A DNA stretch of 42,415 nucleotides from Candidatus Martarchaeota archaeon (GTDB taxonomy: Archaea > Micrarchaeota > Micrarchaeia > Micrarchaeales > Micrarchaeaceae). The notes beneath the pieces are model-generated. The model ran no database searches and was not told the DNA's origin. It was given only the letters and a program-made list of their open reading frames with translations. Within the stretch, counting starts at the first letter, position 1. Each line of letters begins with the position of its first letter. Location of the stretch: positions 24,332-66,746 of the forward strand of contig JAMCZN010000041.1 of assembly GCA_023485505.1 (NCBI GenBank). The letters are read 5' to 3'. Positions 15,222-31,867 of this stretch are shown here, piece after piece. The position numbers and the translations under genes were made by a program.

Positions 15222-15227
15222 GGTGTT
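15222..15227 (+). promoter_or_regulatory. Ribosome-binding site ahead of the ATC start of rnhB
   Basis: GGTGTT, then TGC, then ATC. The same GGTGTT stands four bases before the ordinary ATG of the neighbouring PRC-barrel gene. It differs from the window's commonest GGTGAT at one position. Confidence 0.55.
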
Positions 15228-15230
15228 TGC

Positions 15231-15947
15231 ATCATAATTTGCGGAGGTGATGAGGCTGGCAGGGGTGCCGTACTAGGGCCTCTTGTCATATCCTTGGTCT
15301 CTGTAAAGTCCGGAGGCGAAAAAAGGCTGGCTTCCCTTGGGGTAAGGGACTCGAAGTTGCTTTCCCCAGAGAAAAGGGAATCTCTTTTTGACAAGATACA
15401 CAAGGCATCTAGCGAAGTCCTTGTCGACTTCATATTTCCGGAGGACATAAACAAGGCGATGCAGAGCAACATATCGTTAAACGAACTGGAGGCGGTAAGG
15501 TTCGCCAGGCTGTTCGACAAGGTTAACGAGGACCCAAATGTGCTGTATCTGGATTCGCCAGACGTCATAGCGCATAAGTTTGGCATGCGCGTCAACATAT
15601 ACAGCACGAAAACAACAAACGTTGCCGGCGTGAAGTCCGAGAAGGAGAAGGGCAAGCATTACACTAAGATAGTGGCGGAGCATAAGGCTGATGCAAGATA
15701 TCCTGTAGTATCCGCTGCTAGCATAATTGCAAAGGTCTCAAGGGACAGGGCCATAAAGGAACTGGGGGAATCGCTTGGCTTGTCCATAGGTTCCGGCTAT
15801 CCGTCAGACCAGAAGACAATAGATGTGATAAGGGAGAACTTCAAGAATGAGCAATTCAGAAAGAACGTAAGGGAGTACTGGATAACCATAGATGGCATAA
15901 AGCAGACAAAGATGGGGCTGTTCCTAAATTCATCAAAAGGCAAGTAA
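15231..15947 (+). CDS. rnhB: Ribonuclease HII, probable ATC start
   Basis: Cleaves RNA in RNA/DNA hybrids, removing primers and single ribonucleotides. With ATC 15231 as start the protein is 238 residues. It holds D7-E8 in GGDEAGRGAVLGPL, D108 in YLDSPD and a fourth acidic residue near D154 in EHKADARYPVVSAASIIAKV. There is a basic insert of about 15 residues before EHKAD compared with Thermococcus enzymes. No ATG, GTG or TTG lies in frame between the upstream stop (TAA 15213-15215) and the catalytic DEAGRG. A TTG at 15294 would delete that motif. ATC 15231 lies three bases after GGTGTT and gives MIICGGDEAGRG, the usual length before the first Asp. ATA 15234 and ATT 15237 are alternatives. 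Confidence 0.9.
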   Translation: MIICGGDEAGRGAVLGPLVISLVSVKSGGEKRLASLGVRDSKLLSPEKRESLFDKIHKASSEVLVDFIFPEDINKAMQSNISLNELEAVRFARLFDKVNEDPNVLYLDSPDVIAHKFGMRVNIYSTKTTNVAGVKSEKEKGKHYTKIVAEHKADARYPVVSAASIIAKVSRDRAIKELGESLGLSIGSGYPSDQKTIDVIRENFKNEQFRKNVREYWITIDGIKQTKMGLFLNSSKGK

Positions 15948-28888: not shown

Positions 28889-31327
28889 CTATAACCTGCT
28901 CTGCTTGCCCTTGTTCTTCAGTTCCTCTTCGGTGAAGTCGAGCTCCTTCAGTATCCTCATCGTAGCCGGAAGGACCTGGTGATTTATGTAATAGTCCGGA
29001 TCGTAATCCTTTGCAAACTCCTCGAGTTCCGCCCTTTCGGATACCGATGTGCCATGCCTTGTCACGACATAACCTATGAGCGAATGCTCCACTTCATCCC
29101 TTGTCTTCTGGCCCCGTTGCACCGCCTTTTTTGCAGCTGCGACCTCCGGGGACATTGTGTCGTATGAATCTATCCCCTTTCTGAGCTGCGTGTTTATCAC
29201 CAGCTCGCTTATCGGCACCTTTCCCTCGCGCAATTCGTCTATGACATTCCTGACTATCGCAGCGGCGCTGTCCTTTGAGCCCTCTTTCAATATGGTTTCA
29301 AGAACCCTCCTCTGTGTCTCCCTTGCTATCTTTGACCAGTCCCTTCTTACGAGTTCAAATCCGCGTATCTTGATCCTTCCCGATTCTGCTATGAGCGCAT
29401 ACTTCTTCTTCGCTCCTGCAACTCCCTTTTCCGTCTTTTTGCCAACAAATACTCCTCTTGTGTAGAAGTCCTCAAGCTCCAGCTCCATGCTTTCCGGCAG
29501 TTTCTTGTTTTCCCCTTTCATGAACTCTATTGCTTCGTCTTTTGTGTGGTTTTCCAGAAGCACCACTATTGAATCGGTATCGCTGTACAGGACCCTGAGC
29601 CCGAAAGCCTCAGAATCGGCTATGGTCTGCTGTATGTACTGCCTTCCATATGCGGTAACGCTTGCTGCGCAGTCCCTGGAGTAATATCTTGACCTTGCAT
29701 AACCCAGATAGCCATAGAAGGAGTTGGACACTATCTTGAGCGCAGTCGTCCTTGCGCCAAGCTCTATGTTGCCCGGGTCCTTCTTGAACAGCTTCTTTAC
29801 CACTGACCTTTGGTCTATCAGCAGCTTTAGCACCACGGGCATAACGCTTTTCCTTTTTTTGTCGAATTTCGTCCCTATTGGGGATTCATAGTACTCTTCA
29901 CATTCGGCGCATATGGAAGACGGGTCTATGTTGTGGGATATGATTATCGAGGGATACATGCCCCTAAAGTCGAATATCGCAAGATTGCTGTATATTCCCG
30001 GATCTGGCGTCTTCACGTACGCGCCCTCTATCGGGTTTGCTTCGCGGACCTTCATCTCCATCTCATTTGGCTTGTTCGGGATTATTTCATTGAACTCCTG
30101 CGCATATCTCATAAGCGTAAACTCCACGAGTTGCCCCGGCGTAGAGACCGCGACATCAGTAAGCATGTCTCCCGTGACCTTTGAAAGCTCTATCACTATC
30201 GGGGTTACGGTATTGTAGACCTCCATTAGCGCATCTGAATCGTTTAGGTTGTACGTTGCAAGTTCCTCCAGTTCCTTGGAACTGCCGTCCCATAACTTCC
30301 AGATGAACTTCTTTTCAACCGTTACCTTCTTTCCCGGGCTTATCGCCTCATATACATTCTTCAGCGTATAGCTGTTGAGCTTTAGTATCCGTTCAGAAGC
30401 GCCCACAGTGGCAACGAACCTTGTGACGAGATAAGCGTCAACGTGCACCCTTCCGGATATCTTTACCCTATCAACCAGGCCATGCCTCTCTATCCTCGTT
30501 CCCCCGACAAACCTGCCAAGGTCAAACTCTAGGCCCAGCCTTCTTGACCTGTCTGAAAGATACCTGATATCGAAGTTTGCGGAGTTGTAGCCCGTGATTA
30601 TGTCTATGTCAAGATCGTTTACGATCTGCACAAACCTCTTTATCATGGCTTTTTCGTTTTCAACCACCTCGACGAATTCCTTCTCTATGTTCTTGTAAGT
30701 TATGACTCCCTTCCCTGTTTTTCCGTTTGCGACATAGGAATAACTTATCATTATCACAGGATCCGTGTCCGGCCTCGTGATGACCAGCGGGTTGTAAACC
30801 TCTATATCAAAGCACAGAAGATTTGTGTCGATCTTTGGTTTCTTTTCCTCATCAATCTTCTTTATAGAAACTAAAGAAAGCCTTCCGTTGTCATCCTTGA
30901 ACTGTATCGAGTATGGCGTAAATGGAAACAGCCCGGAATTGAGCATATACCTCTTTGCGAACGGTATGTCATATTCGTAACAATTTCCAAACTTTAGCAA
31001 TGAGTCTGCGAGCTTTGGCACTTGTATCGGCGCCCTCGTATAAACCTTGTAGGAATTTGCTTTTTTCCCGAACAGCGTGAGCTCGCCCCCCTCAACGTTT
31101 GTCGGCTTTATGACAGATGAGCCGTCAAATGCGGTAAGCTCCATCATCTCCTCTTTTTTCATTTCCTTGCTTGGGACAAAAACGAAGTACGGCTTGAAGT
31201 CAGCATCGAATATGTCATATGCCTTCCCGTCAGAGCCCTTCACGGTAAGCCTTATCTGTGCCGTGTCTCCCGTGGACAAGTAATCAACGTCTAGTATAAT
31301 TCCGTCTATGCTGGAAATGCTGCTAAT
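28889..31327 (-). CDS. polB: Family B DNA polymerase, probable ATT start
   Basis: A replicative-type archaeal DNA polymerase with proofreading; 812 residues from the ATT at 31327. The exonuclease motifs are FDIEVYNP (about 173-180), NSANFDIRYL and YNLNDSDALME. Polymerase motif A is DFRGMYPSIIISHNIDPSSI, B is KIVSNSFYGYLGYARSRYYS, and C is LYSDTDSIV. KKKYALIAESG also matches the family. The only standard start, TTG 31279, would cut off GIILDVDYLSTGD, which aligns with the conserved first strand (ILDTDYIT in Thermococcus). ATT 31327 lies three bases after GGGTGAT and follows a TATA (gatatatcat, about 31359-31368) at leader distance. TTG 31279 has a weaker GTTGAT. Confidence 0.95.
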   Translation of the reverse strand: MSSISSIDGIILDVDYLSTGDTAQIRLTVKGSDGKAYDIFDADFKPYFVFVPSKEMKKEEMMELTAFDGSSVIKPTNVEGGELTLFGKKANSYKVYTRAPIQVPKLADSLLKFGNCYEYDIPFAKRYMLNSGLFPFTPYSIQFKDDNGRLSLVSIKKIDEEKKPKIDTNLLCFDIEVYNPLVITRPDTDPVIMISYSYVANGKTGKGVITYKNIEKEFVEVVENEKAMIKRFVQIVNDLDIDIITGYNSANFDIRYLSDRSRRLGLEFDLGRFVGGTRIERHGLVDRVKISGRVHVDAYLVTRFVATVGASERILKLNSYTLKNVYEAISPGKKVTVEKKFIWKLWDGSSKELEELATYNLNDSDALMEVYNTVTPIVIELSKVTGDMLTDVAVSTPGQLVEFTLMRYAQEFNEIIPNKPNEMEMKVREANPIEGAYVKTPDPGIYSNLAIFDFRGMYPSIIISHNIDPSSICAECEEYYESPIGTKFDKKRKSVMPVVLKLLIDQRSVVKKLFKKDPGNIELGARTTALKIVSNSFYGYLGYARSRYYSRDCAASVTAYGRQYIQQTIADSEAFGLRVLYSDTDSIVVLLENHTKDEAIEFMKGENKKLPESMELELEDFYTRGVFVGKKTEKGVAGAKKKYALIAESGRIKIRGFELVRRDWSKIARETQRRVLETILKEGSKDSAAAIVRNVIDELREGKVPISELVINTQLRKGIDSYDTMSPEVAAAKKAVQRGQKTRDEVEHSLIGYVVTRHGTSVSERAELEEFAKDYDPDYYINHQVLPATMRILKELDFTEEELKNKGKQSRL

Positions 31328-31330
31328 CTT

Positions 31331-31337
31331 ATCACCC
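31331..31337 (-). promoter_or_regulatory. Ribosome-binding site ahead of the ATT start of polB
   Basis: GGGTGAT is followed by AAG and then ATT (31327-31325), the standard three-base spacing. It lies about 25-30 bases downstream of the TATA-like gatatatcat. Confidence 0.7.
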
Positions 31338-31429
31338 GTGCCCAGAGAAAAGGCTATGATATATCTCTATTGGCAAAATATTAAAGAGAAGGGTTAAAAC
31401 GGAAAAATAGAAGAAAAAGGGCCGTAATT

Positions 31430-31867
31430 TTAGCCCTCCTGTATCTTTGTCGTGCTTATTACCAGAGGCGGTATAAGGCCAAGGGCATATGCGACAAGCG
31501 TTCCAGTTGCGCTGCACCTGAAGTTGAGGCCGTTTATTATTTCCTCTGCAACATCAACTGGCAATGTCTTCTTGTCGTTCCAGCTCTTCATTATGGCGCT
31601 TACCTTGTCCTTTGAGTCAGTAAGCTCTACCGTGCCTCCAAGCTTCAACGTACCTACGTTCTTCGCGTCTTTTGCGTCTCCCTCGTGGTAATCCGCAAGG
31701 AACGTGTATCCTATCTTCACCTTAGTGCCATCTACATTGACCGTATCAAGGCTTATATTGAGTTTTGGAAACCTCTGCTTTGCTAAAGACTCTGTAGACG
31801 TTATCTTTCCTTCTACGCTGGATATTGTGAATCCCGTTATCATTGTATCACTCGCTTTGTTTGCCAT
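31430..31867 (-). CDS. SecB-like protein, 145 aa
   Basis: A small soluble protein. FPKLNISLDTVNVDGTKVKI, the acidic ADYHEGDAKDAK turn, LKLGGTVELTDSKDKVSAIM and the long final helices (PVDVAEEIINGLNFRCSATG, LVAYALGLIPPLVIST) follow the strand-strand-helix order of SecB-like chaperones. SecB-like proteins are known in some archaea (for example MJ0357). A role holding unfolded proteins is inferred from fold pattern only. The TATA box (gtatttaaag, about 31888-31897) lies about 25 bases from ATG 31867, so the transcript is probably leaderless. Confidence 0.55.
   Translation of the reverse strand: MANKASDTMITGFTISSVEGKITSTESLAKQRFPKLNISLDTVNVDGTKVKIGYTFLADYHEGDAKDAKNVGTLKLGGTVELTDSKDKVSAIMKSWNDKKTLPVDVAEEIINGLNFRCSATGTLVAYALGLIPPLVISTTKIQEG

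Follow-up and report, generated by a model that had tools for sequence, protein, structure and literature searches.

A DNA polymerase B gene of a Micrarchaeota genome probably starts at ATT, one of several likely near-cognate starts in its lineage

The closest described systems in which translation starts at AUA, AUC or AUU (AUH) are bacterial. The infC gene starts with AUU in E. coli, AUC in Streptomyces and AUA, with an extended Shine-Dalgarno (SD) sequence, in S. aureus, and its AUU start mediates autocontrol of its product, IF3 (PMC5472188). The S. aureus genes ccpN (AUA), cvfC1 (AUU) and citZ (AUA) also combine an AUH codon with a strong nearby SD and were overlooked by annotation, and AUU and AUA starts with extended SDs in this organism reach about 10-30% of the yield obtained with AUG (PMC13009471). 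Streptomyces sigR, misannotated by software, has a non-canonical start as well, although this is GTC rather than AUH and is under bacterial IF3 control (PMC5472188). Archaea lack IF3. Their factor aIF1 discriminates against non-canonical starts (PMC6237735).

The gene described here encodes a family-B DNA polymerase (PolB) and has a probable start that standard gene finders would miss. It lies at positions 28889-31327, minus strand, of a 42,415-nucleotide stretch of DNA (the window) from a Candidatus Martarchaeota archaeon, the source genome being a 751-kb MAG of 43 contigs that is 73% complete. From ATT to the stop at 28889 the gene has 812 codons plus the stop. Pfam matches to DNA_pol_B (4e-58, 197.7 bits) and to the exonuclease domain exo1 (2e-30, 106.5 bits) far exceed the curated cut-offs of 23 and place the protein in family B; a match was present in 57 of 60 relatives, and the AlphaFold2 model has a mean pLDDT of 87.4. 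With archaeal PolB of the Pfu/KOD/Thermococcus type the protein shares homology over its full length and the N-terminal strand ILDVDY, but it differs from them in the ATT start and in an N-terminal extension of about 8 residues. Adjoining PolB upstream is a conserved gene for a 145-aa protein (31430-31867, minus strand) to which no family was assigned; a similar C-terminus (PPLVISTTKIQE) is found upstream of PolB in several relatives.

Read from the upstream in-frame stop (31367-31369, minus strand), the PolB frame is TAG AGA TAT ATC ATA GCC TTT TCT CTG GGC ACG GGT GAT AAG ATT AGC AGC ATT TCC AGC ATA GAC GGA ATT ATA CTA GAC GTT GAT TAC TTG. The first-pass annotation had claimed that no standard start precedes the conserved GIILDVDY motif, and both the sequence and an ORF check bear this out: there is no ATG, GTG or TTG in frame between the TAG and the motif, and the first is TTG 31279 (31277-31279, minus strand), which lies past the motif, corresponds to residue 17 of the proposed protein and would drop residues 1-16. 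The ATT at 31325-31327, 48 nt from this TTG, is the sole candidate upstream of the first strand with an SD at the canonical spacing. The SD is GGGTGAT (31331-31337, minus strand), which pairs with the genome's own 16S tail ...AGATCACCTCG; the 16S gene ends ...GGATAGATCACCTCG, hence GGTGAT (31336-31331) is a perfect SD core, and it stands 3 nt before the ATT. The calculated SD duplex is -9.8 kcal/mol for ATT 31327 versus -3.5 kcal/mol for TTG 31279. That three bases is the ordinary spacing in this organism, as had been proposed from the window alone, holds genome-wide: alignment to a relative anchored 243 starts, 140 of them with an SD match of 4 nt or longer, and in this group spacing 3 was much the most frequent, with 53 cases. 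The exact arrangement GGTGAT-N3-ATH occurs at only 11 sites across the two strands (1.5 Mb in total), a frequency of 7.3e-6 per position; among these sites are PolB, a CYTH-domain gene (ATT) and an HD_3 gene (ATA). The TATA box, also cited earlier in favour of ATT, does not easily tell apart two starts separated by 48 nt.

Several lines of evidence argue that the region upstream of the TTG is translated. In the AlphaFold2 model the first β-strand comprises residues 4-19 (codons 31271-31318, minus strand; GIILDVDY is 9-16) with a pLDDT of 85-89, and its ILDVDY aligns with residues 2-7 of a solved archaeal PolB, 3a2f. As the strand spans residues 4-19, a start at TTG would remove most of it, in agreement with the original claim; the N-terminal domain is complete, first strand included, provided that translation begins at or above the ATT. 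When PolB sequences of relatives were aligned and their start codons compared, as had been suggested, 39 of 40 distinct 5' ends had a standard start upstream of the strand, the window being the sole exception. Asp15 and Tyr16, both upstream of the TTG, were invariant over 38 sequences, and codons 9-16 showed 134 synonymous and 94 nonsynonymous changes relative to the relatives.

PolB is not the only gene of this genome without a standard start. The others are RNase HII (ATC), NMD3 (ATA), an AbrB-like gene (ATA), DUF460 (ATA, at spacing 4) and the CYTH-domain gene (ATT). The RNase HII gene (15231-15947, plus strand; Pfam RNase_HII 1.4e-40) has a proposed ATC start at 15231-15233, three nucleotides after the SD GGTGTT at 15222-15227 (GGTGTT-TGC-ATC). 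Residues 3-10 of the product are ICGGDEAG, and a protein begun at the next standard start, which lies 21 codons further on, would lack the catalytic DEAGRG motif. A sister genome or species (G009) has GGTGTTTGC-ATG at this place, while the present genome has the identical GGTGTTTGC followed by ATC. The NMD3 start reads GGTGTT-CAC-ATA here and GGTGAT-GAC-ATA, GGTGTT-CTT-ATC, GGTGAT-CCC-ATC or GGTGTT-TTT-ATA in relatives. The start of the AbrB-like gene (L093:728-1588, minus strand; orthologs L179-L208 and L309-L328), whose product has a weak MazE/AbrB domain match, reads GGTGGT-TGT-ATA here, GGTGAT-ACG-ATC, GGTGAT-GCG-ATT, GGTGGT-TGG-ATC or GGTGGT-AAC-ATA in relatives, and GGTGTT-TCC-ATA in a second family of the order (f2).

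Further observations were made elsewhere in the genome. In the CYTH-domain gene (L073:4177-4749, minus strand, contig C26) the ATT directly follows a TGA (GGTGAT-TGA-ATT), and the next standard start would drop the N-terminal EIEIR stretch. The gene for an HD_3/YfbR-like protein (L055:10554-11162, minus strand, contig C8) has GGTGAT-AAG-ATA 14 codons before its first ATG and is probably a further case. A single-repeat TBP-like protein of 120 aa (L072:16977-17336, minus strand, contig C25; Pfam TBP 3e-24) has GGTGAT-TCA-ACG upstream, and the TBP-like gene of the closed relative G020 has GGTGAT-AAA-ACG at the equivalent place, with an internal ATG present too; judging from these sequences, an ACG start may be conserved between the two genomes. 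A tRNA-Ile with anticodon UAU was predicted both on contig C17 (L064:4597-4672, minus strand) and in G020 (L112:10558-10634, plus strand). In archaea, AUA is usually decoded by a modified CAU tRNA.

Orthologs were compared with G020 (405 non-overlapping reciprocal best hits). In this single genome pair the SD enrichment per codon gave too weak a signal to stand alone, so testing was shifted to single genes over many genomes, about 60 relatives per gene; a contig-edge PHP-domain ORF (C32) and ORFs in rRNA regions were set aside. A nearby standard start was lacking in 11 of 70 NMD3, 18 of 50 AbrB-like, 11 of 30 RNase HII (this genome's gene included), 3 of 30 DUF460 and 1 of 40 PolB orthologs; in RNase HII its place was taken by ATA, ATC or ACG. 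Taking NMD3, AbrB-like and RNase HII together, 37 of the 40 5' ends without a standard start had GGTG at exactly spacing 3 before ATA, ATC, ATT or ACG. By our own tally over the five genes, GGTGNN-N3-codon was found in 38 of 44 such ends (ATA 20, ATC 12, ATT 3, ACG 3), each of these codons being one base from ATG. Orthologs of the same gene served as a control: GGTG at spacing 3 was present in 10/11 NMD3 genes without a standard start versus 6/59 with one, and in 17/18 versus 4/32 AbrB-like genes. The corresponding figure was 4/39 for PolB orthologs with standard starts and 25/243 for standard-start genes generally. Fisher's test on an earlier set of 31 gave p = 3e-16, a value that is indicative only, as related sequences are not independent. 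The genes had been chosen by homology alone before their SDs were inspected, except RNase HII, which was found in this genome through its SD; this genome's row is therefore not independent for that gene, while the ortholog rows are. In other families of the class, each of about 22 NMD3 genes had a standard start, which indicates that the habit is found mainly in families f1 and f2.

From these results we consider, with a probability of about 0.88, that PolB is translated from ATT 31327, as one case of a habit of AUH and ACG starts in the lineage. The strong GGGUGAU SD at the preferred 3-nt spacing would position the 30S subunit on the mRNA, and the initiator Met-tRNA would read AUU by near-cognate pairing with a third-position mismatch, giving Met-SSISSIDGIILDVDY....

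The competing explanations are all improbable to us, though not equally so. That the true codon at 31327 is ATG, masked by a mistake in the assembly or consensus or by a minor strain variant, is the least improbable of them: the PolB ATT occurs in a single genome, a MAG, its relatives use ATG, GTG or TTG, and one base change would make it a standard start. However, NMD3, AbrB-like and RNase HII genes show GGTG followed by AUH at fixed spacing in many further assemblies, G033, G029 and G021 being examples with few contigs, and random errors in ATG would yield AAG, AGG or CTG starts too. Since the pattern recurs in many independent assemblies, the worry about an ATG-to-ATT error is much reduced, although some of it remains. 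Translation from TTG 31279, which would give a 796-residue PolB without the first strand, seems to us less probable again. This TTG is the sole standard in-frame start, and the DVDY codons provide a 5/6 SD-like match (GTTGAT) 3 nt before it; against this stand the loss of invariant Asp15 and Tyr16 with most of the strand, the standard start upstream of the strand in every relative whose N-terminus is available, and the weak duplex. We give the least credence to another non-standard route. A CTG and an ACG do lie in frame between the TAG and the ATT, but neither is preceded by an SD at a usable distance, where the ATT has an optimal one, and in the lineage set AUH starts are commoner than those at CTG or ACG; the alternative of an out-of-frame GTG within GGGTGAT combined with a frameshift has no supporting feature.

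A separate proposal, compatible with initiation at ATT 31327 and adding a purpose to it, is that the codon keeps PolB at a low, regulated level in the manner of infC. The reduced yield of AUU and AUA starts in S. aureus and the autocontrol of infC speak for it. Yet the infC start is bacterial, conserved at that one gene and under IF3 control, whereas here the gene is archaeal and the near-cognate start is sporadic at PolB (1/40) and recurrent elsewhere, so that the conservation of the codon seen in infC-type control is missing. PolB, in contrast to the infC product, has no known role in translation initiation. The non-standard starts of RNase HII and the AbrB-like gene recur far more strongly, interspersed with standard ones, which makes these two the better candidates for regulation; for the AbrB-like gene, whose proportion of 18/50 is among the highest examined, a regulated start is possible. 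Thus, of the first-pass annotation, homology, SD pairing and the recurrence at other genes and in relatives strongly support initiation at a near-cognate codon, while the low-dose purpose found no direct support because the ATT is not conserved at PolB, and we regard it as unlikely.

The cause of such starts was also sought in aIF1. Its absence was rejected as an explanation, the aIF1 gene being present in this genome; the presence of this factor counts against initiation at ATT. The SUI1 profile score of aIF1 has a median of 51.9 bits in family f1, and of 60.9 bits across the remaining families of the class; the divergence of the f1 factor is a possible but unproven cause of relaxed starts. 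However, AUH starts are also used by f2 members and by genus g18, where aIF1 scores are ordinary; the divergence thus does not track AUH use cleanly, and we do not claim it as the cause.

We lean, with less assurance than for PolB itself, towards a wider reading in which families f1 and f2 take AUA, AUC, AUU and ACG as regular starts, given a strong SD about 3 nt upstream, in approximately 1-2% of genes and in as many as a third of the orthologs of individual conserved genes (AbrB-like, RNase HII, NMD3); genes would often switch between these codons and AUG, and start discrimination would be relaxed or re-tuned. In each genome a few conserved genes would start in this way, the strong SD at exact spacing offsetting the weak codon: by holding the 30S subunit it would allow a third-position mismatch (AUH) to be tolerated and, more rarely, a second-position one (ACG). 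From the S. aureus figures, a lower yield than from AUG would be expected at AUH starts in Micrarchaeota as well. The S. aureus set comprises four sites in one bacterium (PMC13009471), whereas the starts proposed here concern several genes in each genome and, for single genes, as many as about a third of the orthologs across two archaeal families. The pattern looks like an archaeal variant of a phenomenon known in bacteria, and its frequency and the genes concerned look new for archaea; a search of open-licence papers returned nothing on point about near-cognate or alternative starts in archaea, Micrarchaeota or DPANN.

For annotation, gene finders restricted to ATG, GTG and TTG truncate or misplace PolB, RNase HII (with loss of the catalytic motif) and NMD3 (with loss of part of the first zinc knuckle). 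Natural ATG/ATH ortholog pairs, such as RNase HII of G009 and of the present genome, suit the study of how initiation factors police the start codon. If the wider reading is true, this archaeal lineage would trade start-codon strength against SD strength far more freely than has been assumed.
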